This document shows, in pieces, positions 31,864 to 57,278 of a stretch of 64,000 bases of DNA (the first letter of the stretch is position 1; each line of letters begins with the position of its first letter). This DNA is from Massilia frigida. GTDB lineage: Bacteria > Pseudomonadota > Gammaproteobacteria > Burkholderiales > Burkholderiaceae_D. The stretch spans positions 186,001-250,000 of the forward strand of contig NZ_WHJG01000004.1 of assembly GCF_011682175.1 (NCBI RefSeq), written 5' to 3'. A program made the position numbers and the translations under genes. The notes beneath the pieces are model-generated. The model searched no databases, was not told the origin of the DNA, and saw nothing but the letters and a program-made list of their open reading frames with translations.

Positions 31864-31878
31864 CGTAGTATGGCTACA
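31864..31878. promoter_or_regulatory. HexR-like palindromic operator S1
   Basis: CGTAGT-ATG-GCTACA, 10 of 12 arm positions as in the best site at 32159. It is 41 bases from the amylase start, over the likely minus-strand promoter. Confidence 0.6.
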
Positions 31879-31963
31879 TGGTCTTGTTATCGATAAAGCA
31901 TACTACAGAAGAGGATGCCTATCAAACGCCGCCGACAGGAAGATATCTGTTCGGGCTTGCGGT

Positions 31964-31978
31964 GCTAGTTTAGCTACA
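31964..31978. promoter_or_regulatory. HexR-like palindromic operator S2
   Basis: GCTAGT-TTA-GCTACA, 9 of 12 arm positions; exactly 100 bases from S1. Confidence 0.5.
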
Positions 31979-32158
31979 TGACGTGTCGATGCGGTCTTTA
32001 TTGCACCGCCGTGAGCGCTTGCGGGGCGAAAATGCGACGCATGCCCTCGTTTTTACTACGGAATTTGCTACAAAAATGTAGTAACGATGAATTTCCAAAA
32101 AGGAGGATTGCACTTGTTTGGTGCGAAAATAACCCAAGGCAAGGAAAAAGATGGTTCA

Positions 32159-32173
32159 TGTAGTCGGACTACA
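32159..32173. promoter_or_regulatory. HexR-like palindromic operator S3 (perfect)
   Basis: TGTAGT-CGG-ACTACA, a perfect 6-3-6 palindrome and the reference for the other sites. Confidence 0.75.
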
Positions 32174-32191
32174 GTCACCTTTGCCATGTTC

Positions 32192-32206
32192 TGTAGCTGA
32201 AATACA
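32192..32206. promoter_or_regulatory. HexR-like palindromic operator S4
   Basis: TGTAGC-TGA-AATACA, 10 of 12 arm positions; 33 bases (about three helical turns) from S3. Confidence 0.6.
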
Positions 32207-32276
32207 ACGAGAATGCCCTGCGTGACGGGTAAGAGATGTAAAAACCGCACTTTTCCGTAGTCGTGCGCAACTCACG

Positions 32277-32304
32277 TTGACAGTGCATCTAGTTTTAGTA
32301 CAGA
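32277..32304 (+). promoter_or_regulatory. promoter of the TonB-dependent receptor gene
   Basis: TTGACA (32277-32282), 16-base spacer, TACAGA (32299-32304). The leader would be about 95 bases. Confidence 0.5.
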
Positions 32305-32406
32305 ATCGGCTCAGAGCGTCTTAGAACGTTGCCTTTGGAACCCGTGCAGTCGCCGCCATGCTGAAGATACGGGAAATGTGTAGTAATGATGAGATGAGGG
32401 GACAGA

Positions 32407-35139: not shown

Positions 35140-35175
35140 TGCGTGCTCTGCCGGGGGGCGATCCCGGCGCTGACG

Positions 35176-35214
35176 ACAACCCCGGCGCATGCGAATGTGG
35201 CGGGGTTGTTTTGT
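35176..35214 (+). terminator. Rho-independent terminator of the TonB receptor gene
   Basis: ACAACCCCG (35176-35184) pairs with CGGGGTTGT (35201-35209), followed by TTTTG. It is about 40 bases after the stop. Confidence 0.8.
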
Positions 35215-35329
35215 GTTGGGGCGACCGCGAACGGCGCGGCAGGCGGCGCGAACCGCGACATCGCGTGGCGGCAAAGCGGAACAGATTGCACGAATAGCCT
35301 CAATTCCCGCCCACTTGCACGCAACTCCG

Positions 35330-35358
35330 TTACAAAAAATCGCATTCTGGACTACAAG
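35330..35358 (+). promoter_or_regulatory. candidate deaD promoter
   Basis: TTACAA (35330-35335), 17 bases, TACAAG (35353-35358). Plausible but not strong. The rest of 35215-35415 shows nothing else I can assign. Confidence 0.3.
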
Positions 35359-35415
35359 AGAGTAAACTGCAGGATGCTTTCCCGTCGGGCTAGCTAGTCA
35401 AATTGTGAGTGTCCT

Positions 35416-37260
<1,845 letters not shown>

Positions 37261-38012: not shown

Positions 38013-39287
38013 TCAGTGTACAGGACCGGGCATCGCAGGCTGGGTAGCTGGCGCCTCGTCCTTCACCAGGCACCACAGGGCCGCAGAGATGGCCAGCGAA
38101 GTGCCGCAGATGACATACAAGATGCTCTGGTCGGCCACGCGTTTGAGCACGAAGCCCACACCGGTGGACATCAGCTGCGGCAGCACCACCGACAGATTGA
38201 AGACGCCCATGAAAAAGCCCATGCGGCTCTTGTCCACCTTGTCGCTCATGATCGCGAACGGCAGGCTGACGATGGCGCTCCAGCCGATGCCGACCACCGC
38301 CATCAGCGCGTACAGCATCATCGGCGTGCGTGCCATGGTGGCGATCAAAAAGTACCCGAGCGCCATGATGGCGATGCAGCCCGCTTGCGTATGGACGCGC
38401 CCGATCCTGCGCGCCAGCGGCGCCAGCACCAGCGCCGGCAGCAGGAAGCCGACCGTATTGAGCACGGCAAAAGCGTAGGCGATCACCTGGCCGCTCATGG
38501 CGTTCGCCGCCTTGGTGTCCAGCCCCACCGGTACCAGCTGCTGCTGGATAAAGCCGTAGGTGTAGACGAACATCGCCTGCACCCCGAGCCACGCAAAGCC
38601 GTGCGCGATGTAGATGCGCCACAGCTGGCCCCAATCGGCTTTGGTGGCGGCCGCCGTCTCATTCTTTTTCACCAGCTCGCGTTCTTCCTTGATGAAGAAC
38701 ATCGGCACCACCGAGAATACGAACACGATGCCGGCGCCGACCGAAATGAGCACGTCGTTGCCGAGGGTCGCGCCGATGATGTACGCCGCCACCCCGAAGA
38801 AGCCCGAGATGGTCTGCATCCACGTGTAGCCGCGTGTGCGCGTTTCCCCTTCCGGGGTGAGGTCGGCGATGATCGAGCGGGTCGGGTTGAAGCTGATGTT
38901 GATCGACAGGTCCAGGGTCAGCGCAATGATCACCGCCACGATGACGATATTCTTGATGCCCAGGAGCTGGCTGACCACATCGATGCGCGGCAGCAGGAAC
39001 ACCATCAGCGCGGCCAGTGTGCCGCCGATCAGGATGAAGGGCCGGCGCCGCCCGCCCCAGAACCAGGCATCGTCGCTGATCAAGCCGATGATCACCTGGC
39101 CGAAGATGCCTGCCAGCGGTCCGGCCGCCCAGACGATGCCGATCTGGTGAATTTCGAGGTTGAAGCGCGTACTCAGGATCCAGCTCAGCGCCGAAATCTG
39201 GATACACAGCGCGAAACCCATCGCCGTCGCGGGAAGGCTCAGGGTCGCGTAAAAAAGGTGATTCAGGCGCTTCTGCATGTCCAGCAT
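38013..39287 (-). CDS. SLC45-type MFS sugar transporter
   Basis: A 424-residue inner-membrane carrier with about 12 hydrophobic segments. ISDDAWFWGGRRRPF after the second segment is the hallmark loop of the sucrose/maltose SLC45-like MFS branch, and DLSINISFNPTRSIIADLTP matches the fifth-segment motif. Likely a proton-coupled importer of maltose or a related sugar. GGGGACACG precedes ATG 39287. Divergent from a second carrier of the same branch, with palindromic operators between them. Confidence 0.85.
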   Translation of the reverse strand: MLDMQKRLNHLFYATLSLPATAMGFALCIQISALSWILSTRFNLEIHQIGIVWAAGPLAGIFGQVIIGLISDDAWFWGGRRRPFILIGGTLAALMVFLLPRIDVVSQLLGIKNIVIVAVIIALTLDLSINISFNPTRSIIADLTPEGETRTRGYTWMQTISGFFGVAAYIIGATLGNDVLISVGAGIVFVFSVVPMFFIKEERELVKKNETAAATKADWGQLWRIYIAHGFAWLGVQAMFVYTYGFIQQQLVPVGLDTKAANAMSGQVIAYAFAVLNTVGFLLPALVLAPLARRIGRVHTQAGCIAIMALGYFLIATMARTPMMLYALMAVVGIGWSAIVSLPFAIMSDKVDKSRMGFFMGVFNLSVVLPQLMSTGVGFVLKRVADQSILYVICGTSLAISAALWCLVKDEAPATQPAMPGPVH

Positions 39288-39304: not shown

Positions 39305-39319
39305 TGTTATTTGACTACA
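39305..39319. promoter_or_regulatory. HexR-like palindromic operator S5
   Basis: TGTTAT-TTG-ACTACA, 10 of 12 arm positions as in S3; 17 bases upstream of the minus-strand carrier start. Confidence 0.55.
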
Positions 39320-39374: not shown

Positions 39375-39403
39375 TTGACACTTAGAAATCGACATGTTAT
39401 TTT
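39375..39403 (+). promoter_or_regulatory. promoter of the plus-strand MFS carrier
   Basis: TTGACA (39375-39380), exactly 17 bases, TATTTT (39398-39403). Leader about 35 bases. Operator S6 covers the -10. Confidence 0.7.
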
Positions 39404-39409
39404 CCTACA
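39395..39409. promoter_or_regulatory. HexR-like palindromic operator S6
   Basis: TGTTAT-TTT-CCTACA, 9 of 12 arm positions; exactly 90 bases from S5. It overlaps the -10 element, a repressor position. Confidence 0.55.
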
Positions 39410-39444
39410 AATATAATGCGTGGCAAAACGCTTGGAGATTCCCG

Positions 39445-40773
39445 ATGCAGATGCAATTCCCGGTAATAAAACCACGCCTGAGTTTCTGGCAGTTGTGGAA
39501 CATGAGCTTCGGCTTCTTCGGCATCCAGTTCGGTTTTGCGCTGCAAAACGCCAACACCAGCCGCATCTTCTCGACCCTGGGCGCGAATGCGGACCAGCTG
39601 CCGCTGTTCTGGCTCGCCGCGCCGGTCACCGGGCTGCTGGTGCAGCCGGTCATCGGCTACCTGAGCGACAATACCTGGCATCCGTTCTGGGGCCGGCGCC
39701 GTCCCTTCTTCTTCCTCGGCGCGTTCCTGGCGACCGTCGCCATGTTCCTGATGCCCAATTCCACCTCGCTGTGGATGGCCGTATTCGTGCTGTGGATGCT
39801 GGACGCGTCGATCAACGTGTCGATGGAACCGTTCCGCGCGTTCGTCGGCGACAAGCTGCATCCCACCCAGCAGACCTCGGGCTTCGCGATGCAGACCTTC
39901 TTCATCGGCTGCGGCTCGGTGATCGCCTCGCTGCTGCCGACCATGTTCACCGATTGGTTCGACGTCAGCAATGTGCCGGTGGGCGGCGGCATTCCGGATA
40001 CGGTGCGCTACTCGTTCTATGCCGGCGGCCTGGCCTTTATCGGTGCAGTGTCGTGGACCGTCATCACCACGCGCGAGACGCCACCCGAAGACATGAAGGC
40101 GTTCCGCGCCGACGTGGAAAAGCGCAAGGGCACCTTGACCGCCCTGCGCGAAATCCTTGGCGGCTTCACCACCATGCCGCGCACGATGGTGCAACTGGCG
40201 AGCGTGAGCTTCTTCTCGTGGCTGGCGCTGTTTACGATGTGGGTCAACACCACGCCGGCCATTGCCGAAAACGTCTTCGGCACGGTCGACGCGCAGTCGG
40301 CCGCATTCCAGAGCGCCGGCAACTGGGTCGGCGTGATGTTCGCCGTGTATAACGGCGTGTCGGCGCTCGCCGCCTTCATCCTTCCCGTGATCGCGCGCCG
40401 CACCAACCGCAAGATGACGCACCTGGCCTGCCTGGTCATCGGCGGCATCAGCCTGGCCAGTATTTTCTTCATCACCCAAAAAGAGATGCTGCTCATTCCG
40501 ATGGTCGGCGTCGGCATCGCGTGGGCCAGCATCCTCACCGTGCCGTATGCGATCCTGGCGGGCGCGCTGCCGCCGCAGCGCATGGGTTTCTACATGGGCG
40601 TCTTCAATTTCTTCGTCGTGATCCCGCAGATCGTTGGCGGCATGGTTCTCGGCCCGATCAGCGTGGCCCTGCTGGGCGGGCGTCCGGTGGCGACCTTGCT
40701 GCTGGCCGGTGCATGCATGGCCATCGGCGGGCTGCTGACCGTATTCGTGGCCGACAAGGGCGAGCAGACCTAA
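39445..40773 (+). CDS. SLC45-type MFS maltose/sugar transporter
   Basis: A 442-residue carrier with about 12 membrane segments. LSDNTWHPFWGRRRPFFFLG carries the SLC45-like loop, and DASINVSMEPFRAFVGDKL the matching fifth-segment motif. The closest known bacterial relatives carry maltose. It should bring maltose or maltodextrins from periplasm to cytoplasm. ATG 39445 with TGGAG in front is chosen; an upstream in-frame ATG at 39394 lies within the promoter. It leads pgm and the GH13 gene that follow with short gaps, probably as one operon. Confidence 0.88.
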   Translation: MQMQFPVIKPRLSFWQLWNMSFGFFGIQFGFALQNANTSRIFSTLGANADQLPLFWLAAPVTGLLVQPVIGYLSDNTWHPFWGRRRPFFFLGAFLATVAMFLMPNSTSLWMAVFVLWMLDASINVSMEPFRAFVGDKLHPTQQTSGFAMQTFFIGCGSVIASLLPTMFTDWFDVSNVPVGGGIPDTVRYSFYAGGLAFIGAVSWTVITTRETPPEDMKAFRADVEKRKGTLTALREILGGFTTMPRTMVQLASVSFFSWLALFTMWVNTTPAIAENVFGTVDAQSAAFQSAGNWVGVMFAVYNGVSALAAFILPVIARRTNRKMTHLACLVIGGISLASIFFITQKEMLLIPMVGVGIAWASILTVPYAILAGALPPQRMGFYMGVFNFFVVIPQIVGGMVLGPISVALLGGRPVATLLLAGACMAIGGLLTVFVADKGEQT

Positions 40774-40815: not shown

Positions 40816-42462
<1,647 letters not shown>

Positions 42463-42496: not shown

Positions 42497-44149
42497 ATGA
42501 AATTTTCCGCACTTGCAGTCTCACTGGCGCTCACTTTCGGCGCCGCCCACGTCAACGCCGCGCCGCCGGTGGCGCGCACCCCGTTTGTGTGGGAAAACGC
42601 GACTGTGTATTTCCTGTTGACGGACCGCTTCAACAACGGCGACAAAACCAACGACCTGGCGTACGGACGCAAGGCCGATGCCGCGCCGCTGCGCGGTTAC
42701 ATGGGCGGCGACCTGGCCGGCGTAACCGCGAAAATCAAGGAAGGCTACTTCAAGGAGCTGGGTGTCGATGCGATCTGGATCACGCCGCCGGTTGAGCAGG
42801 TTCACGGCAGCACCGATGAAGGCAGCGGCAAATCCTACGGCTTTCACGGCTACTGGGCGCGCGACTTCACCAGCATCGACGCCAATCTCGGCACCGAAGC
42901 GGACCTGCAGGAACTGGTCGACACCGCGCACGCCAACGGCATCCGCGTGCTGCTCGACGTGGTGATGAACCATACCGGCCCGGTCACCGCGCTTGATCCG
43001 GTGTGGCCCAAGGAGTGGGTGCGCACCGCGCCGGTGTGCGCTTTCAAGGATGCGCGCACCACCATCGATTGCACGCTGGTGAAGAACCTGCCTGACTTCC
43101 GCACCGACGTCGACCGGCCCGTCGCGCTGCCGCCGGCGCTGGTGGCAAAGTGGAAGGAAGAAAAGCGCTACGAGCGCGAAGTGGCCTCGCTCGATGCCTT
43201 TTTCAAGGAAACCGGCTACCCGCGCGCCCCGCGCTACTACCTGATGAAATGGCACGCGGACTGGGTGCGTAAATATGGTTTCGACGGCTTCCGTGCCGAC
43301 ACCGCCAAGCACGTCGAGCCGCGCGTGTGGAAGGACCTGAAAAAGGTCGCCAGCAAGGCGTTCGAGGACTGGAAGCGCGACAACCCGGCCAAGCGCCTCG
43401 GCGACGGCAAGTTCTACATGACGGCCGAAGTCTATAACTACTCGCTGCGCCACGCGCACCAGTTCGACATGGGCGGCGAAACCTTCGTCGACTTCTACGA
43501 CAATGGCTTCGATAGCCTGATCAATTTCAGCATGCCGTCCGACGCCAAAGGCGGCTACGACGCCATGTTCGGCCGCTACGCCGCGCTGCTGGCCGGACCG
43601 CTGCGCGGTTATTCTGTGCTCAATTATCTGAGTTCGCACGACGACGCGGCGCCGTTCGACCCGACGCGCACGCGTCCTTTCGATTCGGCGGTGAAGCTGC
43701 TGCTCTCGCCTGGCGCCGCGCAGATTTATTATGGCGACGAGACCGCGCGCCTGCTCACGCACGACGGTGCCAAGGGCGACGCGGTGCTGCGTTCCTTCAT
43801 GAACTGGGATGAACTGGCCAACAACGCCCAGCGCGACGGCTACCGTATCGCCGACGTGCGCAAGCACTGGGGCCTGATCGGCCGCTTCCGCCAGGCGCAT
43901 CCTGCGGTGGGCGCCGGCGAGCACCGCAAGCTGCAAGCGACCCCGTACATTTTTGCGCGCACCTACGAGAAGGACCGGGTCGTGGTGGCGCTCGATCTGC
44001 CGACCGACAAGTCGACGCCGGTCGTGGTGGGGCCGGTGTTCCGGGATGGCGAGTCGGTGACCGATTACTACTCGGGCAAGAAGGCCGTGGTGGCGGGGGG
44101 GAAGGTCGATTTCCACACCAAGAACGGGATCGTGCTGATCGCGAACTAA
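42497..44149 (+). CDS. exported GH13 alpha-amylase family enzyme
   Basis: A 550-residue enzyme with signal peptide (ALAVSLALTFGAAHVNA). The GH13 regions are DVVMNHTG, GFRADTAKHV (nucleophile Asp), TAEVYN (acid/base Glu) and SSHDD (third Asp), then a short C-terminal beta domain. Size and periplasmic export are like MalS-type amylases. AGGGA precedes the ATG, 34 bases after pgm. It would trim long maltodextrins before MFS uptake. The gene is followed by a REP-like hairpin. Confidence 0.9.
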   Translation: MKFSALAVSLALTFGAAHVNAAPPVARTPFVWENATVYFLLTDRFNNGDKTNDLAYGRKADAAPLRGYMGGDLAGVTAKIKEGYFKELGVDAIWITPPVEQVHGSTDEGSGKSYGFHGYWARDFTSIDANLGTEADLQELVDTAHANGIRVLLDVVMNHTGPVTALDPVWPKEWVRTAPVCAFKDARTTIDCTLVKNLPDFRTDVDRPVALPPALVAKWKEEKRYEREVASLDAFFKETGYPRAPRYYLMKWHADWVRKYGFDGFRADTAKHVEPRVWKDLKKVASKAFEDWKRDNPAKRLGDGKFYMTAEVYNYSLRHAHQFDMGGETFVDFYDNGFDSLINFSMPSDAKGGYDAMFGRYAALLAGPLRGYSVLNYLSSHDDAAPFDPTRTRPFDSAVKLLLSPGAAQIYYGDETARLLTHDGAKGDAVLRSFMNWDELANNAQRDGYRIADVRKHWGLIGRFRQAHPAVGAGEHRKLQATPYIFARTYEKDRVVVALDLPTDKSTPVVVGPVFRDGESVTDYYSGKKAVVAGGKVDFHTKNGIVLIAN

Positions 44150-44337: not shown

Positions 44338-46191
44338 ATGACCAAAGAACACGATTCAGAACAAAAGTATAGCCGTACCGCTTATGCCGACGGCCCGCGC
44401 CTGCTGGCCGATATCGGCGCGACCCACGCGCGCTTTGCCCTCGAAACCGCGCCCGGCGTGCTGCGCGCGGTGCGTGTGCTCAAGTGCGACGACTTCCCCG
44501 GCATCGTCCCGCTGCTGCATACCTATCTCGCCGACCACGCCGGCATCCGCATCAACCACGCCGCCTTTGCCCTCGCCAACCCGATCAGCGGCGACATGAT
44601 CCGCATGACCAACCGCGACTGGCAATTCTCGACCGATGAAGTGCGCCGCGAACTGGGCCTGAACACCCTGCTGATCGTGAACGATTTCACCGCCCTGGCG
44701 ATGTCGCTGCCCGGCCTGTCGGGCGACGATCTGATGCAGGTTGGCGGCGGAACGCCCGCGACGAACGCCGTGATCGGCGTCGTCGGGCCGGGCACCGGCC
44801 TTGGCGTCTCCGGCATGATCCCGACGGTCGACGGCTTCGTCACCCTCGGCAGCGAAGGTGGCCACGTCAATTTCGCCCCGGCCGACGAGCGCGAATTCGC
44901 CATTTTGCAGTACGCATGGAACGAGTGGTCGCACGTCTCGAACGAGCGCCTCATTTCCGGCCCCGGGATGGAACTGATCTACCGCGCGCTGGCCCAGCGC
45001 AACGGTGTGCAGGCCGCGCCACGCACCTCGCCCGAGATTATCACCGGGGCCCTGGAAGACAACGACGCGCTCTGTCTCGAAGTGCTCGACTGCTTCTGCG
45101 GCATGCTTGGCGGCGCGGCCGCCAACCTGGCCGTCACGCTCGGCGCCTTCGGGGGCATCTTTATCGGCGGCGGCATCGTGCCGCGCATGGGCGAGTGGTT
45201 CGCCACGTCGGCCTTCCGCGCGCGCTTCGAGGCAAAGGGCCGCTTCAGCTCCTACCTTGGCCAGATCCCGACCTACGTCATCATGATTCCCAACCCGGCG
45301 TTCATCGGCGTGGCGACGATCCTGTCCGAACACCTGCGCGGGCGCAGCGGCGCCAATACGCTGATGGAGCGCGTGCAGCATTTGCAGCACGAACTGTCGC
45401 CCGCCGAACAGCGCGTGGCCGCGCTGGTGCTGGGACACCCGCGCAAGGTGCTGGGCGAGCCGATTGCGGAAATCGCGCGCCTGGCCGATGTCAGCCAGCC
45501 GACCGTGATCCGCTTCTGCCGCTCGCTGGGCTTTCTGGGCCTGGCCGACTTCAAGCTCAAGTTCGCCAGCAGCCTGACCGGCACCATCCCCGTGCGCCAC
45601 AGCCAGGTGCGCGTATCCGACAGCACGCACGATCTGTCGGCCAAGGTGATCGACAATACCGTGTCGGCGATCCTGAAATTCCGCGACCAGCTCGACGTGG
45701 TGTCGATCGACCGCGCCATTGCGCTGCTGCGCAAGGCCAACCGGGTCGAGTTTTACGCCATGGGCAATTCGCGCGTGGTGGCGCTGGATGGCCAGCACAA
45801 ATTCTTCCGTTTCCGTATTCCCACCTCGTCGTATGGCGACTCGCATTTATTCACGCTGGCGGCCGAACTGCTCAAGCCGGGCGACGTGGTGATCGCCATT
45901 TCCACCTCGGGCCAGTTGCCGGAGCTGCTGGCGGCCGTGGATGCGGCGCGCGCCACAGGCGCCGACGTCATTGCGATTACCAGCAGCAAATCGGCGCTGG
46001 CGAAACGGGCGACTATTTGTCTGGCGGTCGATCACAGCGAAGACAGCACCAGCTTCCTGTCGATGATCTCGCGGGTGCTGCAACTGCTGCTGATCGATAT
46101 TCTGTCGGTCGGTATTTCGCTCGGCGCGCAAGGCGCCGATCCGGCCGATCACGAGAAAAAGCGCTCGCTCATCTCGCACCTCGATATCTGA
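44338..46191 (+). CDS. glucokinase fused to RpiR/HexR-type regulator
   Basis: A 617-residue bifunctional protein of the type known in Burkholderiales. Residues 20-335 form glucokinase (LLADIGATHARFAL, catalytic VNDFTALA, GPGTGLGV, SEGGHVNFAP); 345-420 form an RpiR helix-turn-helix (EIARLADVSQPTVIRFCRSL); 450-600 form a SIS sugar-phosphate domain (FYAMGNSRVVALDGQ, ISTSGQLPELL). It should make glucose 6-phosphate and sense a downstream phosphosugar to control transcription. Relatives have GGTNARFAL; both copies here have GATHARFAL. A likely binder of the TGTA-N7-TACA sites. Confidence 0.92.
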   Translation: MTKEHDSEQKYSRTAYADGPRLLADIGATHARFALETAPGVLRAVRVLKCDDFPGIVPLLHTYLADHAGIRINHAAFALANPISGDMIRMTNRDWQFSTDEVRRELGLNTLLIVNDFTALAMSLPGLSGDDLMQVGGGTPATNAVIGVVGPGTGLGVSGMIPTVDGFVTLGSEGGHVNFAPADEREFAILQYAWNEWSHVSNERLISGPGMELIYRALAQRNGVQAAPRTSPEIITGALEDNDALCLEVLDCFCGMLGGAAANLAVTLGAFGGIFIGGGIVPRMGEWFATSAFRARFEAKGRFSSYLGQIPTYVIMIPNPAFIGVATILSEHLRGRSGANTLMERVQHLQHELSPAEQRVAALVLGHPRKVLGEPIAEIARLADVSQPTVIRFCRSLGFLGLADFKLKFASSLTGTIPVRHSQVRVSDSTHDLSAKVIDNTVSAILKFRDQLDVVSIDRAIALLRKANRVEFYAMGNSRVVALDGQHKFFRFRIPTSSYGDSHLFTLAAELLKPGDVVIAISTSGQLPELLAAVDAARATGADVIAITSSKSALAKRATICLAVDHSEDSTSFLSMISRVLQLLLIDILSVGISLGAQGADPADHEKKRSLISHLDI

Positions 46192-48924
46192 TCACTCCAC
46201 GAACACGACGGCGGTGCGCGCGGGGATGGTAAAACGCCCGGTGGCGCTGTCGAAGGTGCTCGCCGCGGCGCGCTGGTCGGCCGCTGACGGTGCCGTATGC
46301 ACCGGATGCAGGCGCAGGCGCCTGCCGCGCATCCCGGCTAGATCGAGCGTGTGCGCTACCTTGTCCACATTGATGAAGTACGCCACGTCCGTGAATCCGG
46401 CGCCGGCGTAGCCCGTGCCGTCGATGTGCGCCGCGATCACGGTGGGAACCTGTTTTGACCCGGTGTTGTGGAAGCGCAGGCGCTGGCCGATGTCCTGCGC
46501 GCTGCGCATCCGGAACAGCGTGGAGCTGGCGCGGATTGCCAAGAGGTCGCGAAAGGCGTCGCGCGCGAAGGCGATATCTGCCGGTGCGGGCTTGAGCGCG
46601 GCATTGGCCAGCAAGGGTTTGATCAGCGCGTAATCCCTGGCGTTGTCGTCGGCCGGCGGCGCACCGGTGCCGAAGTAATTGTCCTGGTAGCTCCAGTCGA
46701 TGCGGTTGAACCAGTCGCCGGAATTGAAGCTGTTGCGGTCCATCGACTTCGAGCGCAAGGTGTCGATCCCGGCATGGAAGTAGGCCACGCCCTGGCTGAA
46801 AGCGTTGATCGCCGCGCCCAGCACCTGCACGCGCGCGCGCTCGGCGCTTGATGTGGCCAGCGGCAGCTTGAATACGTTCATGTCGTACAGGGTCTGGTTG
46901 TCGTGGTTTTCGACGTAGTTGACCGCTTCCCCGGGTTCGCTGGCGTATCCCGCTGGCTGGCCGTTGTAATCGATGGCCTCCAGGGCCAGGGTACTGTCCT
47001 TGTATGTCGTCATGGCGTAGCTGCGCACCGAACCGGCCAGCCCGACGCGCACCATGTCGGCCGCCTGCATCAGGTCCGTCAGCGGCCGTTCGCCGGCCAG
47101 CGCATTCGGGTCGTACACCAGGCCGTTGATGTAGCCCTGGCGCCGGATCATGTCCGCGCCGGCATCGGCCGCCGAACCGCCGCGTACATGGTCGCGCGCG
47201 CGGTCGCTGAAGGTGCCGATGCCGCTGCCGTTCAAGGACAGTTGCGACGCTTGCACGAAGCGCGCGCCGTCGGCCACCTCGCCGAAGTTCCAGCCTTCGC
47301 CGATCAGCTGCACATGCCGCCCCGCCGCCGCGTTCACGCGTGCTTGCAGCCGCTCCATCGCCGCGCGCGGCTGGTGGCCCATCAGGTCGAAACGGAACGA
47401 GTCGATCTTGTACTCGCGCGCCCACAAGGCGGCCGAATCGATCATGAGTTTGGCCATCATGCGGTTTTCGGTCGCGGTATTGTCGCAGCAGGTCGATTGC
47501 TCGACGCCGCCGGCCGCATTCAGTCTGTGATAGTAGCCGGGCACGATGCGGTCGAGGACCGATTTTTCCTTCTGGCCGGAGGCAAACGTATGGTTGTAGA
47601 CCACATCCATGCCGACCCGCAGGCCGGCCCGGTGCAGGTTCATGACCATGCCGCGCAATTCGATGATGCGCGTGGCGGCGTCAAACGCATCGCTGGCGTA
47701 GCTGCCTTCCGGCGCGTTGTAGTGATACGGATCGTAGCCCCAGTTGAAGCAATCGGTCGCCGCTGTCTGCTTGATCAGTGCCTGCTGCGCTTCGCTGTCC
47801 GCCGCGCCGGTGGGAGCGGGCTGCGCGCAGCCGCGTTCCGGAATGCTGGCGATGTCGTACACCGGCAGCAGGTGAACGTCGGTCATGCCGGCGCTGGCCA
47901 GGGCGGCCAGGTGCCGCATGCCGTTCGACCGGCTGTGCGAAAAGGCGGCGTACTTGCCGCGCGCCGGCGCCGGCACGGTCGCGTCGTTGATCGAAAAATC
48001 GCGCACATGCAGCTCGTAGACGGCCATGTCCGTCTGCGCCTTGACTGTCGCCGGTGGCGCCGACTTGTCCCAGCCGGCCGGCTTGAGTCGCGGCGATGCC
48101 AGGTTGGCGATGTAGCTGCGTTGCGAGTCGGTGGTCAGGCTGACCGAATACGGGTCGGTCACCATGTTGCGTACCAGGCCCGTGCCATCGGCCACGACGT
48201 CAACCGCGTATTTGTAGTATTTGCCGGACAGGTCGCCTTGTCGCGTGGCGCTCCAGATACCGGTTGCGCGGTCGAACCGCATCGTATCGATCGCTTTCGC
48301 GCGTCCGCTGCCGCTGTCGTAGGTGCAGACGGACACCTGGCGCGCGGTCGGCGCCCACAGCTTGAAGGTGGTGCCCCGGCGCGCAGGGACTGCACCGAGA
48401 TCGCTCGCCGATTCCGCAGCCGCGTACAGATCGTCGAGCGCGCCCGCCGCCTGTAGCCTGGTCGCCGCGCGCACTTTTCCGTCAGCGTCTTCCCGCACCA
48501 ATACCAGCTGCTGCCGGTGCAGGCCGGGCAGGCGCGCCAGATCGGCTGCCGCCACGGCCAGCATCACGCCCTTGCCGACGTACTTGAAGCGCTGCGCCAG
48601 TGTGTCGCTGGAGGCGGCAAGTACCAAGGCGCCCGATGCGCCGCTGACCGTGCCGCCGCTTGGTGCCGCAATGGTCCCGTCGGGCGAGTGATAGAGTTTG
48701 AACCGGCCCGTATTTTCCATGCCAGGCCATTGCGCAAGGCGCCGGTCCAGCCAGACGGCGCGCGCATCGATACTGGCGGGCGATAGCCGCACGATGGTTT
48801 GAAAGGCGCCGCTGTCGCAGACCGCCGCCATCGGCGCGGCCGAAGCCGACGCGCTCGCGCCGGCGAGAACTGCTGCCCTGAAAAGTGAAAAGGTCATCTG
48901 GCGTCCGGTGTCGTCGTTGTGCAT
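46192..48924 (-). CDS. pulA: exported pullulanase (type I, alpha-1,6-glucosidase)
   Basis: A 910-residue enzyme. After a signal peptide ([15 protein letters not shown]) come N-terminal pullulanase modules including a CBM48-like domain ([16 protein letters not shown]), then the catalytic barrel: [38 protein letters not shown] (nucleophile Asp), IGEGWNFGE (acid/base Glu), VENHDN (third Asp), and a C-terminal beta region. It debranches pullulan and limit dextrins. ATG 48924 has AGG at good spacing; 48897 is an alternative that starts closer to the signal peptide. It lies only 11 bases after dctD, and its stop abuts the convergent glucokinase-RpiR gene. Confidence 0.9.
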
Positions 48925-48935: not shown

Positions 48936-50267
48936 CTATTTTTTGCCGGGTGCCAGCTGGTATTTTTTGAGCTTGTCGTACAGGGTTTTACGCGGCACGC
49001 CGAGTTGGTCGGCGGCGGTTGACACATTCCCGTCGACTGCGTCGAGCGCATTGGCGATCAGCTCGCGCTCATAGGCGTCGAGCTGCTGCGGCAGGCTCAA
49101 GGCGCCGCCCGGAGCGGCAGCGGCGTCTGGCGCCGGTGCCGCAACGATGCCAAGCACCAGCCGCTCGGCGAAGTTGCGCAGTTCGCGCACATTGCCCGGC
49201 CACTCGGCCGCCTGCCACTGGCTCATTTGCTGGCTGCTCCACTGCGGCACCGGCCGCCCGTAGCGTTGCGCCGCATCCTGCGTGAAGTGCGCCATCAGCG
49301 GCGCGATGTCGTCGCGCCGTTCGTTCAGTCGCGGCAGGTCGATCGTGGCCACCCCGATGCGATAGTACAGGTCTTCGCGGAAGCGGCCCTCCGCGCTCAG
49401 TTCCAGCAAGTCGGCCTTGCTGGCCGCGATGATGCGAAAGTTCACCGCGATCGCCTCGTTGCCGCCCAGGCGCTCCAGCCGGCGTTCCTGCAGCGCCCGC
49501 AGCAGCTTCACTTGCAGCGCCATCGGCATGCTCTCGATCTCGTCGAGGAACAGGGTGCCGCCGTTGGCGTATTCGAGCTTGCCGATGCGGCGTTTGTGGG
49601 CGCCCGTAAACGCGCCGGCCTCGTGCCCGAACATCTCGCTCTCGAACACCGATTCGGGCAGGGCGCCGCAATTGATCGCGACAAAATTGCCCTTGCGCGC
49701 GCTGGCCGCGTGGATCAGGCGCGCCACCACTTCCTTGCCGGTGCCGGTCTGGCCGTTGATCAGGATGTCCACGCCGGCCGGCGCGATATTGCGCACCAAC
49801 ACCTTGAGCCGTTCGATGGCGTCGGAGCGTCCCACCAGTTGCGGCGTATCCGGATGCAGCGCCCACGCCGTCTTGAGGTGGCGGTTTTCCAGCACCAGGC
49901 TGCGCCGCTCCTGCGCACGCCGCACCGCGTCGAGCAGGCGTTCGGCGCCGAACGGTTTTTCGATGAAGTCGTACGCGCCGGCGCGCATGGCGCCGACCGC
50001 CATCGCCACGTCGCCATGGCCGGTGACCATGATCATGGGCAGTTCCGCATCCAGCGCCACGACTTGCGCCAGCAGGTCGAGGCCGGAGCGCCCGGGCAGG
50101 CGCACATCGCTGACGATCACGCCATCAAACGCCGCGTCGAGCGCCGCCTGGGCTTCCTCCGCGCTGGCGAAGGCGCGCACGGTAAAGCCGCCCAGTTCCA
50201 GGGTCTGGGTGGTGGCCAGGCGCAGCGGCGCTTCGTCTTCCACCAGGATGGCTTGCATGGTTTTCAT
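48936..50267 (-). CDS. dctD: sigma-54-dependent response regulator DctD-like
   Basis: A 443-residue activator: receiver 5-120 (phospho-Asp in VIVSDVRLPG), AAA+ domain about 145-375 with Walker A GQTGTGKEVV, the sigma-54 contact GAFTGA and Walker B GGTLFLDEIE, then a Fis-type helix-turn-helix (NVSTAADQLGVPRKTLYDKL). Its start overlaps the dctB stop (ATGA). The natural target is the sigma-54 promoter at 54710 in front of the ABC operon. Confidence 0.92.
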   Translation of the reverse strand: MKTMQAILVEDEAPLRLATTQTLELGGFTVRAFASAEEAQAALDAAFDGVIVSDVRLPGRSGLDLLAQVVALDAELPMIMVTGHGDVAMAVGAMRAGAYDFIEKPFGAERLLDAVRRAQERRSLVLENRHLKTAWALHPDTPQLVGRSDAIERLKVLVRNIAPAGVDILINGQTGTGKEVVARLIHAASARKGNFVAINCGALPESVFESEMFGHEAGAFTGAHKRRIGKLEYANGGTLFLDEIESMPMALQVKLLRALQERRLERLGGNEAIAVNFRIIAASKADLLELSAEGRFREDLYYRIGVATIDLPRLNERRDDIAPLMAHFTQDAAQRYGRPVPQWSSQQMSQWQAAEWPGNVRELRNFAERLVLGIVAAPAPDAAAAPGGALSLPQQLDAYERELIANALDAVDGNVSTAADQLGVPRKTLYDKLKKYQLAPGKK

Positions 50268-52024
50268 TCATTCCCCTTGTCCGGCAGCGGCAGGCGCACC
50301 TCGAATTGGGCGCCGCCGCCGGGGCGGTTGCTGCCTTCGAGGTGCCCGTTCATGGCTTGTACGATCGATGATGATATCGCGAGCCCGAGCCCGAGGCCCT
50401 TGCCCGATGGCTTGGTGGTAAAAAACGGTTCGAACAGGTGGGCGGCCACGCTGTCGGACATGCCCGCGCCGCTGTCGGCGATACGTACCACGGCGTAGCC
50501 ATCCTGCTGCGCGAGCGTGACCGACACCTCGCGCACCGGCGCCTCGTCGACGGCATCGAGCGCATTGCGCAGCAGGTTGATGAACACCTGTTCGATGCGC
50601 ACGGCGTCGCCGGTGATCAGCAGCGGCGCGGGCGGCGGCAGCGCCAGCGCCACGCCCAGGCGTTTGAATTCGCCCGCCAGCAAAAATGCCGAGGCGGCGA
50701 GCGACTGGGCGATATCGACTGTCGCCACGGCGTCGCTGCGCCGCGCAAAGCCCTTCAACTGGCCGATGATGGCGCCCATGCGCGCGCTGGCATCGCTGAT
50801 GTGGGTCAGGTTGGCGCTGGCCTGCGCCTGCTGCCCGCGTTCGAGAAAGGTGCGCGCATTGTCGGCAAATGCGCGGATCGCGGCCAGCGGCTGGTTCAGT
50901 TCATGCGTTACGCCGGCCGCCATCTGCCCCAGCATCGCCAGCTTGCCCGCCTGGACCAGCTGGTCCTGGGTCGAGCGCAGTACATGTTCGGTTTGTTTCA
51001 GGGTGGCGTAGCGCGCTTCCAGGTCGTCGTTGGCCTGGCGCAGCAGCGCGGTGCGCTCGGCCAGTTTTACATCGAGTTCGCTCGCCGCACGCTGCAACGC
51101 GGCATTGGCGGCCTGGCGTTCTTCGAGCCGGCGGCGGCGCTGGTACAGGGCCCAGGCGCCAACGGTGGTGCTGGCCGCGACGAGCGCGGCGGCCAGCGCC
51201 CACAGGGCCGCCATGCGCCGCACCCGCCCCGGCGAAGGGAACAGCATCAGCTGCCACCCCAGGCGGCCCGTCGTGCGGGCGGCATGCGGCGCCGGCTTCC
51301 CGTCGATGGGCGTGATGGTGCGGCGCGCGTACTGGTCGGTGCTGGCCAGCTCGCGCTGGGTAGCGGCGCTCAAGGCGTGCAGGCTGCGGTACTTCCATTG
51401 CGGCCGGTTGGACAGGAACACCACGTCGGCACGGTCGGCCAGCACGATGGTGTCCTCGGCGCCGGCCCAGTTGCGTTCGAATTCGTCGAGGCTGATCTTG
51501 ACCGCGACCACGCCGCTCACGGTGGCGCCAGTCATCACCGGCTGGGCGATGAAGTAACCGGGTTCGCTGGTGGTGCTGCCGATGCCGTAAAAGCGCCCGG
51601 CGCGCCCGGCCAGCGCCTCATGAAAATACGGACGGTAGCCGAAGTTCCTGCCCACGAAGGTGAGCGGCAGGTCCCAGTTGCTGGCGGCGAGCGTGTTGCC
51701 GTCGCGGTCCATCAGGTAAATGGCGCCCACCTTCGACTGGCGCTGTATCGCCTTCAGGCTGCGGTTGACCTGGTCGATGCGCGCGCGCTCGCCGGGATGG
51801 GCGAGCAGCGCGGCCACGTTCTCTTGCAGGCCGACGACGTAGGGCAGGGTCTCGAACTTGTCCAGCGCCGATTCCAGTTCGGGCGCCATCAGCTGCAACT
51901 GGCGCGCGCCGCGTGCGAGTTCGTCGGCCGCGCCCTGGCGCGCCGCCCACTGGTAGGCGGCCATGATCAGCCCCGCGCTGGCGAGCAGCGCGAGGAGCCA
52001 GGCGAGTTGTCGTTTTACGTGCAT
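50264..52024 (-). CDS. dctB: DctB-like sensor histidine kinase
   Basis: A 586-residue membrane kinase: membrane segment about 9-27, periplasmic double-Cache sensor about 40-270 (AIYLMDRDGNTLAASNW, GRNFGYRPYF), second membrane segment about 283-305, a coiled coil, then HisKA with phospho-His in GVTHELNQPLAAIRAFADN and HATPase_c (NLLRNALDAV, DSGAGM, GKGLGLGLAIS). DctB proteins sense C4-dicarboxylates, but here it follows an ABC importer rather than DctA or DctP, so the ligand may differ. Forty-five bases separate it from the ABC ATPase gene on the same strand. Confidence 0.92.
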   Translation of the reverse strand: MHVKRQLAWLLALLASAGLIMAAYQWAARQGAADELARGARQLQLMAPELESALDKFETLPYVVGLQENVAALLAHPGERARIDQVNRSLKAIQRQSKVGAIYLMDRDGNTLAASNWDLPLTFVGRNFGYRPYFHEALAGRAGRFYGIGSTTSEPGYFIAQPVMTGATVSGVVAVKISLDEFERNWAGAEDTIVLADRADVVFLSNRPQWKYRSLHALSAATQRELASTDQYARRTITPIDGKPAPHAARTTGRLGWQLMLFPSPGRVRRMAALWALAAALVAASTTVGAWALYQRRRRLEERQAANAALQRAASELDVKLAERTALLRQANDDLEARYATLKQTEHVLRSTQDQLVQAGKLAMLGQMAAGVTHELNQPLAAIRAFADNARTFLERGQQAQASANLTHISDASARMGAIIGQLKGFARRSDAVATVDIAQSLAASAFLLAGEFKRLGVALALPPPAPLLITGDAVRIEQVFINLLRNALDAVDEAPVREVSVTLAQQDGYAVVRIADSGAGMSDSVAAHLFEPFFTTKPSGKGLGLGLAISSSIVQAMNGHLEGSNRPGGGAQFEVRLPLPDKGNE

Positions 52025-53702: not shown

Positions 53703-54671
53703 TTATTGGACGGACAGGGACTTCTTGGCCTGATCGAGCAGGTCGGTCTTGACCCAGTCCTTGGCGAGCGGCGGCGTGCGCATCTTGCCGGTGCCGGTCT
53801 TGGCCATCACGTCGGTGGTGGTCTGGATATGCTCGATGCTGACGTCGTAGGTGTAGGGCGAGTTGGCGATCGCGTCCTCGAAATCGTCCTTGGTGATCTG
53901 GTTCTTGAACATCGATTCGCGCACGTATTTTTCGCCGGCCGCCTTGTTATCGATGAACAGCTTGGTGGCCTGCACGAAGCAGCTCATGAACTTGGCCGCG
54001 GTGGCGCGGTTCTCCTTGTAGAATTTTTCGCTCATGACGAGCGTGCGTACCGGCTCGCCGATCGGGGTGTCGTAGGGTTTCATCACTTCCATGCCGAAGC
54101 CCTTGTTGATCGCTTGCGACGATTGCGGCTCGCTTTGCATGATCGCGTCCAGGTTCTTGCCGAGCAGCGCCTGGTTCAGGTCCGCGAACGCGAGGTAAAT
54201 GACATGCACGTCCTTGCCGGCCGAATCGGACCAGGTGAGGCCATGCTTGGCCAGTTGCGCGTACAGCAGCACTTCGTGGATGCCGCCGCGCGTCACGCCG
54301 ACCTTCTTGCCCTTGAGGTCCTTGACCGACTTGATGCCGCCGTCGGGGCGCGCGACCAGGCGCGCGCCACCTTTAGCGAAACCGGCCACGATGTAGATCG
54401 GCGCACCGTTGGCGCGGCCGGAAATGGCCGCCTCCGACGCGGTGGCGCCGACGTCGAGGTCTCCCGAGAGGATCGCCTGCATCACGTCGGGGCCTTTGGC
54501 GAACATGTTTTCTTCCACCTTGATGCCGCACTTGGGCGCGATCTCCTTGATGTACGAGACGGCGCCGTAGTGGGCGAATTTGAGGTTGCCGAGCCTGACG
54601 ACATTGTCGGCCGCCTGGGCGGACGCGGACAGGGCCGCCGCTGCCAGGATCAGGTGCTGGATGGTTTTCAT
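53703..54671 (-). CDS. ABC importer periplasmic binding protein, nitrate/taurate type
   Basis: A 322-residue binding protein with signal peptide (LILAAAALSASAQA). It has the NMT1/SsuA-like pattern: GDLDVGATASEAAISGRANG, IKSVKDLKGKKVGVTRGG, AFADLNQALLGKNLDAIM. Ligands of this group include sulfonates, thiamine precursors, aromatic or organic acids. First gene of a probable five-gene unit (binding protein, permease, ATPase, dctB, dctD). GGAG precedes the ATG and a sigma-54 promoter lies about 40 bases upstream. Confidence 0.9.
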   Translation of the reverse strand: MKTIQHLILAAAALSASAQAADNVVRLGNLKFAHYGAVSYIKEIAPKCGIKVEENMFAKGPDVMQAILSGDLDVGATASEAAISGRANGAPIYIVAGFAKGGARLVARPDGGIKSVKDLKGKKVGVTRGGIHEVLLYAQLAKHGLTWSDSAGKDVHVIYLAFADLNQALLGKNLDAIMQSEPQSSQAINKGFGMEVMKPYDTPIGEPVRTLVMSEKFYKENRATAAKFMSCFVQATKLFIDNKAAGEKYVRESMFKNQITKDDFEDAIANSPYTYDVSIEHIQTTTDVMAKTGTGKMRTPPLAKDWVKTDLLDQAKKSLSVQ

Positions 54672-54709
54672 TTTTCATCTCCGTTATGGTTTAGCTACAC
54701 CATGCCTGT

Positions 54710-54725
54710 TGCATCTTCCGTGCCA
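54710..54725 (-). promoter_or_regulatory. sigma-54 promoter of the ABC-dctBD operon
   Basis: On the minus strand TGGCACGGAAGATGCA matches the -24/-12 consensus TGGCACG-N4-TTGCA at every fixed position except one (A for T). GG and GC are ten bases apart as required. Transcription would start near 54698, giving a leader of about 27 bases to ATG 54671. Confidence 0.75.
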
Positions 54726-54780
54726 GCGCTGCGGGCGCTGTCCGCAGGGGCGCAGGGGCAAGGAGACGGGCGAAAACTGG

Positions 54781-54822
54781 CGGAAATCCGGAATGGGGAC
54801 GATGCGGCGTGCGGAAAACCGC
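54781..54822. promoter_or_regulatory. two spaced palindromes, candidate DctD enhancer sites
   Basis: CGGAAATCCG (54781-54790) and GCGGAAAACCGC (54811-54822), centres 31 bases apart (three turns) and about 55-95 bases upstream of the -24 element. The similar sequence CGGAAA-N-CCG and the spacing fit an activator of the NtrC family. Confidence 0.45.
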
Positions 54823-54830
54823 GAACAGGG

Positions 54831-54856
54831 CCGGGCGCCACGGCTGCGGCGCCCGG
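54831..54856. repeat. GC-rich hairpin after the Cache gene
   Basis: CCGGGCGCC (54831-54839) pairs with GGCGCCCGG (54848-54856). It lacks a T-run; it could end or stabilise the Cache-protein transcript on the minus strand. Confidence 0.5.
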
Positions 54857-54865
54857 GAGGGGTAC

Positions 54866-55330
54866 TTACTTGTAGATGCCGCAGTTGATGATCAGGTCTT
54901 CGTATTTTTCGAAGTACATCGATTTCGGTTCGATCTGTTTGGTGACCGGATTGACAAACTTGTAGTCCTGCCAGCCTTTGCCCTTGGCCTTGACCAGGTC
55001 GAGGCGCTCGCGCATGAAGGGTTTGCCGTCCGCGTCCTTGAGGTCGATCAAGTCCTTGCCCTGCATCTTGGCGTTGGCGCCATGGGCCAGGTTTTTCATG
55101 GTCATGTCGTTGATGGTCACGTACAGGTCGCGGTCGCGAAAGCGGGTGTTTTGCAGGTCGTTGATTTCGGCGATGGTCTTTTCGCGCCCATTCGCTTTCA
55201 TATAGGCGATCACCTTCTGCACCAGTGCCTTGGCTTCCTCGGCTGTGCCATGGTCGCTGGCGGCGGCGCCGCTGCTGGTGCAAAACACGGCGGCGCAGCA
55301 CATGAACGCTATCTGGAACAATTTACGCAT
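54866..55330 (-). CDS. secreted single-Cache-domain protein
   Basis: A 154-residue protein with signal peptide (IAFMCCAAVFCTSSGAAA). The mature part is a single Cache-type ligand-binding domain: TAEEAKALVQKVIAYMKANG, INDLQNTRFRDRDLYV, DADGKPFMRERLDL. There is no membrane anchor or output domain, so it may act as a free periplasmic binding protein presenting a ligand to a receptor. It lies directly upstream of the sigma-54 operon on the same strand, which suggests a link with DctB or the ABC importer, but this is inference. Confidence 0.75.
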   Translation of the reverse strand: MRKLFQIAFMCCAAVFCTSSGAAASDHGTAEEAKALVQKVIAYMKANGREKTIAEINDLQNTRFRDRDLYVTINDMTMKNLAHGANAKMQGKDLIDLKDADGKPFMRERLDLVKAKGKGWQDYKFVNPVTKQIEPKSMYFEKYEDLIINCGIYK

Positions 55331-55396
55331 GATGATCCCCTTATCGTTGTAGGGGCGGGGAAGCAGGCTGCTTTCCCGCCTTTGGCACGGCCAGTT

Positions 55397-57001
55397 TTAC
55401 GCCTTGGCCGGTGCGGCGTCGGAACGGTAGTTATCCATCATCTTGTAGCGCGTCGCATACCAGCCGAAGACGGCGGCGGCCACGAACGCAAAGCCGGCGA
55501 AGAAGTACATCTGGAAGGCGATGACGCTGAACCCGCTGGTGGCGATATGCGAGATCACCGCATCGTTCTTGATGCTGGCATTGACGATCAGTACCCACAG
55601 GCTGCCCACCGTGTTGGACAGGAACCAGAACGCCATGATCACGCCCTTCATCGATGGCGGCGACTGGCTGTACGCAAATTCGAGGCCGGTGGCCGACACC
55701 AGGACTTCGCCGAAGGTGAGCAGCGCGTAGGGCAGCACTTGCCACGCCATCGAGGTTGGCGTGCCGCCGTCCATCTGCACCTGCAGGGCGCCGATCACAA
55801 TCCACGACAGCGCGGAGAACACGATCCCGGTCGTCATGCGGCGCAGTGGGGACGGTTGGATGCCCATCTTGCGCAGCGCCGGGTACAGCACCAGGTTATT
55901 GAACGGGATCAGGATCATCACCAGCAGTGGATTGAGCGCCTGCATCTGGGCCGGCACGAAGGTGAAGTCCTTGCCGAACAGGGTGAGGGTAGGGGCAATC
56001 ATGGAGTTGGCCTGGACGATCCAGGTCGACGCCTTCTGGTCGAACAGCGAGTGGAACGGCGTCACCAGCGCAAACACAATCAGGATGCGCAGCACCGCGC
56101 GCACGCCGTCCACCGCCACATCCGAATGCAGGCCGCGCGCGCGTTCAAGCTGCATCGAGGTACCGATGCCGCCGAAGGCCAGCAGCAGCACCAGGGCGGT
56201 GCAGGCGGCGATCACGAAACCCCATTGCGGCGACATGGCCAGCGCTGCGACGGCGCCGGCCACGCCGAACATGGCCACCGCCAGTCCGCTGCGCGCCTGG
56301 CCCGGCTTGTGCGTCATGAGCGCGCTGCGCGCCACGCGGGTGAACGAGTCCGGGTCCGGCGGGGCGGGCGGAAGGTGGATGTATTTTTTGCGTCCCAGCC
56401 AGAACACGATGGTGGCGATGAACATCAGTACGCCGGGAATGCCGAAAGCGACAGCCGCGCCGTAATCGCGCAGGAAGATCGGCATCAGCAGCGAGGCGAA
56501 AAAGGAGCCGAAGTTGATCATCCAGTAGAACACGTCGTAGACGACTTTCGCCTTGTTCTTGTTGGTCTGGTCGAACTGGTCGCCCACAAACGACGAGATC
56601 AGGGGCTTGATGCCGCCCGAGCCGAGCGCGATCAGGAACAGGCCGAAGTAAAAGCCCTTGAGGCTATCTTCGAAGATGGCCAGGCAGGCATGGCCCGCGC
56701 AGTACACAAGACTGAGCCAGAAGATGGTGTCGTATTTGCCGAAGAAGCGGTCGGCCAGCCAGCCGCCCAGCAGCGGGAAAAAGTACACACCGATGACGAA
56801 GGTGTGGAACACGTGCTTGGCTTCGCCGGTGCGGTCGGCGACCGGCATGAACAGCAGCAGGGTGCTGATCAGGAAGGGGGTGAGGATGTTGCGCATCCCG
56901 TAAAAACTGAATCGTTCGCACCCCTCGGTGCCCACGATGTACGGAATCTGACGGGGCATCGGCCCGTTTCCGCTTTCTTTATCTTTATCCAACTGCGACA
57001 T
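55397..57001 (-). CDS. POT family proton-dependent oligopeptide transporter
   Basis: A 534-residue inner-membrane carrier with about 12-14 hydrophobic segments. EGCERFSFYGMRNILTPFLI carries the ExxERFxYYG-type signature and VFYWMINFGSFFASLLMP the FYxxINxGSL-type signature of the PTR2/DtpT family. It imports di- and tripeptides with protons. ATG 57001 with GGGAG in front is chosen over a longer frame that would have an unlike leader. Its upstream region contains palindromic operator S7, so it may belong to the sugar regulon. Confidence 0.9.
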   Translation of the reverse strand: MSQLDKDKESGNGPMPRQIPYIVGTEGCERFSFYGMRNILTPFLISTLLLFMPVADRTGEAKHVFHTFVIGVYFFPLLGGWLADRFFGKYDTIFWLSLVYCAGHACLAIFEDSLKGFYFGLFLIALGSGGIKPLISSFVGDQFDQTNKNKAKVVYDVFYWMINFGSFFASLLMPIFLRDYGAAVAFGIPGVLMFIATIVFWLGRKKYIHLPPAPPDPDSFTRVARSALMTHKPGQARSGLAVAMFGVAGAVAALAMSPQWGFVIAACTALVLLLAFGGIGTSMQLERARGLHSDVAVDGVRAVLRILIVFALVTPFHSLFDQKASTWIVQANSMIAPTLTLFGKDFTFVPAQMQALNPLLVMILIPFNNLVLYPALRKMGIQPSPLRRMTTGIVFSALSWIVIGALQVQMDGGTPTSMAWQVLPYALLTFGEVLVSATGLEFAYSQSPPSMKGVIMAFWFLSNTVGSLWVLIVNASIKNDAVISHIATSGFSVIAFQMYFFAGFAFVAAAVFGWYATRYKMMDNYRSDAAPAKA

Positions 57002-57141
57002 GGGTACTCCCACTATGTAAACAGATGGGATGCTAAGCCCAAGCCCGGAGGCTGGCAACAGGTATCGCTCGCCGTGGCGGGGTGCCACCTCCGGCCACCG
57101 GACGCGTCATTGCAACGGCAGGTGCAGTTGGTCGGCATGGC

Positions 57142-57156
57142 TGTAGTTAAACTACC
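57142..57156. promoter_or_regulatory. HexR-like palindromic operator S7
   Basis: TGTAGT-TAA-ACTACC, 11 of 12 arm positions as in S3. On the minus strand it overlaps a candidate -10 (TAGTTT, 57149-57154) lying 18 bases from TTGCCG (57173-57178), upstream of the POT carrier. Confidence 0.65.
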
Positions 57157-57242
57157 GAATGTACTCTATCTGCGGCAATATATATTGCATAAGTTGTTGA
57201 AATAAAAGGAAATTAATCGTTTTTTCCGTTTTCTCCTGTTCA

Positions 57243-57271
57243 TTGTAAAATCGGTGAGATTGATGTATATT
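57243..57271 (+). promoter_or_regulatory. promoter of the alpha-glucosidase gene
   Basis: TTGTAA (57243-57248), 17 bases, TATATT (57266-57271); leader about 23 bases. Operator S8 covers the -10. Confidence 0.65.
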
Positions 57272-57278
57272 ATGTACA
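57264..57278. promoter_or_regulatory. HexR-like palindromic operator S8
   Basis: TGTATA-TTA-TGTACA. It keeps the TGTA-N7-TACA core, though the inner positions differ from S3 (8 of 12 arm positions). It covers the -10 and expected start of transcription. Confidence 0.5.

Follow-up and report, generated by a model that had tools for sequence, protein, structure and literature searches.

HexR/RccR-type operators at starch-gene promoters of a Massilia genome, with a glucokinase-RpiR fusion as their likeliest reader

According to passages of PMC5489143, RccR of Pseudomonas is an RpiR-family sensor of 2-keto-3-deoxy-6-phosphogluconate (KDPG), and its operator, TGTAGT-N3-ACTACA, was established by chromatin immunoprecipitation sequencing, surface plasmon resonance and footprinting, with two copies at aceE (TGTAGTTTTACTACT and TGTAGTAAAACTACA). 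For HexR of Vibrio the operator TGTAATTAAATTACA has been predicted (passages of PMC11906056), and a comparative survey names no starch-uptake target of HexR in the passages covered (PMC5343134). Here we analyzed a window of 64,000 nucleotides from a Massilia genome of 7.79 Mb (G000:C200:186001-250000), in which a family of 15-bp palindromes lies at the promoters of starch genes and two genes encode glucokinase fused to RpiR. A study by Leyn et al. from 2011 is said to be the main comparative work on HexR and may cover betaproteobacteria. Our analysis indicates that the operators are genuine and conserved and belong to a known type with apparently new starch targets, the fusion enzyme being the likeliest candidate for their reader.

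A sequence-only reading of the window had listed eight palindromes, and all were found at their coordinates in three promoter regions (maltodextrinase/TonB-dependent receptor (TBDR), carriers MFS1/MFS2, and POT carrier/alpha-glucosidase), which together cover 952 bp and are AT-richer. At up to three mismatches, TGTAGTNNNACTACA had 16 matches in the window (mean 3.97 and maximum 10 in 100 shuffles), comprising seven of the eight listed sites, a further one at 32288, and eight outside the three regions; the claim that the palindromes occur only in these intergenic regions is thus correct for the listed eight but not for all matches. The neutral form TGTANTNNNANTACA gave 13 matches at up to two mismatches (expected mean 2.79, maximum 7), eight of them inside the promoter regions, and 7 of the 21 exact half-sites (TGTAGT or ACTACA) of the window fall within the 952 bp, where TGTAGT ranks first among its 60 permutations (seven occurrences, the next having three).

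Between the maltodextrinase and TBDR genes, operator CGTAGTATGGCTACA (31864..31878) lies about 40 bp upstream of the maltodextrinase open reading frame (ORF) start (31823, minus strand), its aligned position in two Rugamonas loci reading GGTAGGCA(A/G)ACTACA, and the perfect operator TGTAGTCGGACTACA (32159..32173, no mismatch) lies about 248 bp upstream of the TBDR start; motif scan and alignment also gave the weaker GCTAGTTTAGCTACA (31964..31978) and TGTAGCTGAAATACA (32192..32206). The operator TCTAGTTTTAGTACA (32288..32302), which the earlier list had overlooked, ranks second of 569 windows in conservation (alignment with four relatives) and occupies the spacer between a -35 box TTGACA (32277) and a -10-like CAGAAT (ending at 32306). 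Between the MFS carriers, TGTTATTTGACTACA (39305..39319), about 18 bp upstream of the MFS1 ORF start, is present in 10/10 aligned loci and identical in nine, and TGTTATTTTCCTACA (39395..39409) has a core-promoter position, adjoining TCGACA (39389) on its upstream side and followed after 2 bp by TATAAT (ending at 39417). Sites like the latter occur in L076, L077, L078, L079, L080, L082 and L088; it aligned badly in the locus alignment, where the sequence cut followed the ORF start. The own-genome rows L001 and L008 were not counted in these alignments. The region separating the genes for the POT carrier and the alpha-glucosidase contains operator TGTAGTTAAACTACC (57142..57156), and the last listed element, TGTATATTATGTACA (57264..57278), is conserved and keeps the TGTA-N7-TACA ends but nothing beyond them; it overlaps the alpha-glucosidase promoter at a -10-like TATATT and may itself be a -10 box, its operator role being uncertain. 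The -35 and -10 boxes are consensus matches only. An operator placed within the -35/-10 spacer fits repression.

The sites conform to the 15-bp form TGTA(A/G)T-N3-A(C/T)TACA of HexR/RccR-type operators. Elsewhere in the same genome, sites stand upstream of zwf-hexR (TGTAAATTTACTACA), pgi (CGTAAATTCACTACA) and edd (TGTAGTAAAATTTCA, 35 bp upstream of the edd match), and further ones precede a stand-alone glk, a lamB/sugar-binding-protein pair, a CBM20 amylase (two sites) and a pullulanase; in other Burkholderiales families, many of the sampled loci have sites upstream of a zwf or edd gene that neighbours a glk-hexR pair or a fusion. Because the RccR operator matches and sites precede zwf, edd and pgi here and across the Burkholderiales, the palindromes are very probably HexR/RccR-type operators. 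A scan of the window for the 28-bp form of the RccR operator, allowing up to two mismatches, found none.

Conservation was assessed over the 350 bp upstream of each homologue, the own genome being included and only distinct regions being counted, and each region was scored for a site with at most one mismatch from TGTARTNNNAYTACA; shuffling predicted 0.0-0.6 regions per gene set, and the regions are related sequences, so the counts are not independent events. Among starch genes, sites were present upstream of TBDR (17/17), MFS1 (11/11), POT (22/29), Agl (alpha-glucosidase; 24/56), MFS2 (29/90), Pul (11/26) and the CBM20 amylase (1/1), and among central-carbon genes upstream of Edd (30/36), Zwf (28/49) and Pgi (18/35). 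Weaker sets were Glk (5/23), GlkR (8/96), LamB (1/12), GH27643 (1/4) and Pgm (1/25), and no site was found for Amy (0/36), RR (0/11), HK (0/3) and HexR (0/42), nor for DeaD (0/16) and Tal (0/24). This conservation at orthologous promoters, together with the equality to the RccR operator, bears out the earlier proposal of a shared sugar operator with HexR-like geometry. The Agl sites came from fusion-bearing genomes of the family (24/38), with none in other families (0/6) and none in genomes without a full-length fusion (0/12; 46 chosen HexR-bearing genomes searched, 45 with a canonical and one with a divergent HexR), eleven of these twelve matches having 51-55% identity and probably not being orthologues, and one having 63%. 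In one genus, six Agl regions have CGTAGTTT(A/T)GCTACT, more than one mismatch away, and were scored as misses. About 55 of the 61 MFS2 misses belong to Bacteroidetes, Photobacterium or Vibrio carriers; a site was present in two regions from Photobacterium. Bacteroidetes (L192, L196, L201-L244) possess MFS2 relatives, up to 71% identical, that lack the operator; a transfer of the MFS2-type carrier between phyla is suggested.

HTH_6 matched three proteins of the genome strongly and one weakly, below the cut-off. The strong ones are the fusion encoded at 44338, a second, frame-broken fusion, and a zwf-linked HexR (L036:9103-10101, contig G000:C144); the sequence-only reading had counted two fused RpiR domains in the window and no other evident sugar regulator there, the second fusion gene being broken and the zwf-linked HexR lying elsewhere in the genome. 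The 44338 product shows PF01418 (60.3 bits) followed by PF01380 (70.8 bits), the HTH_6 plus SIS arrangement of the RpiR family, and both it (217.7 bits) and the zwf-linked protein (266.5 bits) score below the 296-bit cut-off of the HexR family NF008451. Glucokinase-RpiR fusions are annotated as a family, and literature searches, judged mostly without opening the papers, brought up no tested member. A tree built on 91 RpiR rows unites the fused domains in a single group of 48 (100/100), within which the starch fusions are a group of 26 (100/99). The fusion label of L274 in this tree was an artefact of a long open frame, and G377, G341 and G381, with an internal stop and RpiR frames of 284-292 aa, were reassigned from fusions to unfused pairs. 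The recognition helix VSQPTV-x-RFCR is unchanged in 18 aligned fusions, and both arginines of RFCR are common to the fusion and the zwf-linked HexR. The structure prediction was moderate (pLDDT 67.4, pTM 0.45, residues 597-617 under 50), and nothing was drawn from it.

The two sets of promoters differ in the arm of the palindrome. An A at arm position 5 was found in 28 of the 32 distinct (genus, site) pairs of zwf-HexR gene sites (16 genera) and in 7/37 pairs of starch sites (six genera), a difference with a Fisher probability of 8e-9, uncorrected for kinship; named loci, which overlapped with the sampled genomes, were left out of the count. In the own genome alone, the A arm occurs in 3/3 HexR sites vs 2/8 starch sites (57264 excluded). 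Where zwf stands beside a fusion, A-type arms were absent (0/7), and the fusion genes of L102-L104 and L106 have G-type sites upstream. Three of the four A-free sites of the HexR class (g28) probably belong to an adjoining zwf2-fusion operon. Near this operon, paired sites TGTAGTAAAAATACA and TATAGTAAAACTACA, about 145-149 bp apart, were noted upstream of genes (L095 and L097-L099 around 6440-7200; L096 at 12511-12660).

The ligand pocket can be compared with that of RccR, for which parts of PMC10810197 give the KDPG contacts S139, H148, R152, H164, S183, S185, S188, K270 and R277 and report that sensing was abolished in R152A, K270A or R277A. In our alignment the 8ju9 chain showed the named residue at all eight contact positions covered; position 277 was placed by ungapped extension, the RccR sequence reaching residue 273. 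All 26 starch-fusion rows keep H148, R152, H164 and S183, and most keep S139 (24/26) and S185 (22/26), but S188 is absent (0/26; Leu in 24/26), Lys at 270 occurs in 5/26, and Arg at 277 in none (0/26), the tail reading ISHL(D) there. Unfused glk-linked HexRs of other families have a nearly complete contact set, and the zwf-linked HexR carries Arg at 185, the position of a phosphate-contact serine in RccR, Gln at 270 and Asp/Glu at 277 in all sampled family orthologues. With contact residues, including essential ones, lost or changed, neither the starch fusion nor the zwf-linked HexR looks like an RccR-type KDPG sensor, and the latter may no longer sense KDPG. The fusion pocket keeps phosphate-binding residues of RccR, and another phosphosugar without a C1 carboxylate, possibly glucose 6-phosphate, is a plausible ligand, with which the loss of KDPG contacts is compatible.

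We favor, with some reserve, the reading that the fusions are the readers of the starch-gene operators and that the RpiR operator class was taken to the starch genes with them. A duplicated glucokinase-RpiR fusion in Massilia and related Oxalobacteraceae would most likely have carried this operator class there; by occupying the 15-bp sites, the fusion would repress the TonB receptor, the maltodextrinase, both MFS carriers with the pgm-amylase genes, the POT carrier and the alpha-glucosidase, and the fusion genes, lying downstream of controlled genes, would be repressed along with them. Once starch sugars enter and become phosphorylated, a phosphosugar in the SIS domain might free the fusion from DNA. 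In this explanation we infer the reader, the sign of regulation and the ligand, beside the observed sites, their conservation and placement at promoter-like boxes, the motif's identity to the operator of RccR, the distinct arm pattern and the fused gene. Arm segregation, the single clade of fused RpiR domains and gene linkage lend the earlier proposal of fusions as operator readers indirect support, but the absence of any further candidate is not supported in that form, given the zwf-linked HexR elsewhere in the genome with its closely related sites. A more speculative version, which we consider doubtful, is a trigger enzyme in one polypeptide, whose glucokinase half would make glucose 6-phosphate and whose own SIS pocket would sense it, switching the starch regulon by flux, KDPG sensing having been given up in the lineage.

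Several results weigh against the observation or against the fusions as readers. As to the observation, the raw motif count in the genome was not enriched over a reversed-pattern control, either at one mismatch (20 vs 28) or at two (106 vs 348), and we conclude that the signal resides in the location rather than the number of sites; of the 20 one-mismatch sites, 10 lie at sugar-gene promoters, but six lie inside called ORFs and three in intergenic stretches elsewhere (one of the three extending five bases into a gene end), with one (C222) left unclassified. Sites upstream of the maltodextrinase are weakly conserved (3/40 at one mismatch). The arm counts, uncorrected for kinship, rest on few independent site families, and A-type arms occur beside unfused glk-hexR in 7/14 cases, at MFS sites, at a pullulanase (C177) and lamB (C111), and upstream of the own fusion gene in other lineages (G378, TGTAATTGCATTACA and TGTAATAGAATTACA; G001, AGTAATCTCACTACA). 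The letters of the recognition helix alone fail to predict arm type: a rule by which Gln or Glu in the helix would specify G- or A-type arms failed on RccR, which has Glu (the fusions Gln) yet binds TGTAGT arms. Furthermore, among 24 genomes whose RpiR genes were listed, every fusion-bearing one also has a HexR-like-scoring RpiR protein, so that fusion and HexR are inseparable by genotype; g32 and g42, tried as fusion-without-HexR genomes, were rejected when another HexR-like protein was found, behind zwf in two g32 genomes.

This occurrence of HexR in fusion-bearing relatives is one reason to consider a single HexR regulon, in which the zwf-linked HexR (C144) would read both central and starch sites and the fusions would act chiefly as glucokinases, their regulatory half being minor or vestigial; the zwf and edd/pgi sites share the ACTACA half and the 15-bp geometry with the starch sites, and HexR and fusion keep the same two helix arginines. 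We regard it as possible, if rather unlikely, since the arm pattern differs (28/32 vs 7/37), since the g32 genomes G187, G063 and G104, with starch-type fusions and a best HexR only about 42% identical, keep the TBDR sites (3/3; MFS2 1/3), and since the fused RpiR half is constrained (invariant helix, 58/277 invariant columns), although less so than the kinase half (102/340). The overlap of the motifs, the sugar genes with mixed A/G and G/G sites, and the differing pocket residues would also suit shared operators, at which fusions and HexR compete or sit together and respond to different ligands as a two-input switch. Pseudomonas offers something of a precedent in a pair of related RpiR regulators with a common ligand and divided targets (passages of PMC5489143). 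The segregation of arms suggests at least partial separation, and we judge shared operators unlikely. TonB-receptor sugar loci often use LacI proteins, and the genome has 11 LacI-type helix-turn-helix matches, but none of them (0/11) lies inside the window, and the motif, which equals the operator measured for RccR, turns up again across the Burkholderiales at zwf, edd and pgi in the neighbourhood of RpiR genes; a reader outside the RpiR family, LacI-type or other, is therefore highly improbable.

The proposed reader is encoded as a 617-aa glucokinase fused to RpiR (HTH_6 plus SIS) at 44338..46191 (+), and the genes served by the three promoter regions are a cyclomaltodextrinase/maltodextrin glucosidase-like GH13 (29943..31823, -), the TBDR (TIGR01782; 32407..35139, +), the MFS/GPH-type sugar carriers 1 (38013..39287, -) and 2 (39394..40773, +), the POT-family (PTR2) carrier (55397..57088, -) and the alpha-glucosidase-like GH13 (57301..58941, +). 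Since the MFS2 ORF as called begins within the promoter (39394), translation probably starts at ATG 39445; the closest named matches of this carrier (93-95% identity) are from Massilia rubra, M. aquatica, M. atriviolacea and M. mucilaginosa. Downstream of it follow phosphoglucomutase (40831..42462, +; 928.2 bits, cut-off 378) and an alpha-amylase-like GH13 (42497..44149, +). The second glucokinase-RpiR gene (58941..60786, +) is broken near 59770 in this assembly by a frame change in a run of G (59764-59795), which may be a sequencing error or a recent mutation; the gene is intact in G148, G192, G181, G138, G159 and G111. A pullulanase-type alpha-1,6-glucosidase (46192..48924, -) is adjoined by an NtrC-type response regulator and a histidine kinase (48936-52024), and in G148 the interval from pullulanase to response regulator holds a TGTAGTGAAATTACA site (L074:17178). 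The 15-mer TGTAGTGCAATTCCA occurs twice in the genome (G000:C192:21036 and G000:C222:259178), possibly in a repeat.

With named operators, conserved promoters and a contrasting class of HexR sites, the DNA target and the ligand of the fusion are open to direct test, and the locus suggests that an operator of central metabolism was recruited to polysaccharide uptake. In domain order the 44338 product resembles NCBIfam NF010701 (PRK14101), glucokinase followed by RpiR, and matches it over nearly the full length, although at 817.6 bits it stays below the cut-off of 920; one of the 200 sampled genomes, G310, exceeds it, with its fusion behind zwf and TGTAGTTTAACTACA about 72 bp upstream of the zwf match. 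Gammaproteobacterial HexR shares the RpiR family and a 15-bp palindrome, but it is a stand-alone protein with A-arms on both sides and central-carbon targets. The best PDB matches for both the RpiR half of the fusion and the zwf-linked HexR are 8ju9/8k3b. RccR (PA5438; PDB 8K3B) is likewise of the RpiR family and has the same 15-bp operator, TGTAGT-N3-ACTACA; unlike the fusion, it carries no kinase, and its targets are genes of pyruvate, glyoxylate and gluconeogenesis metabolism.

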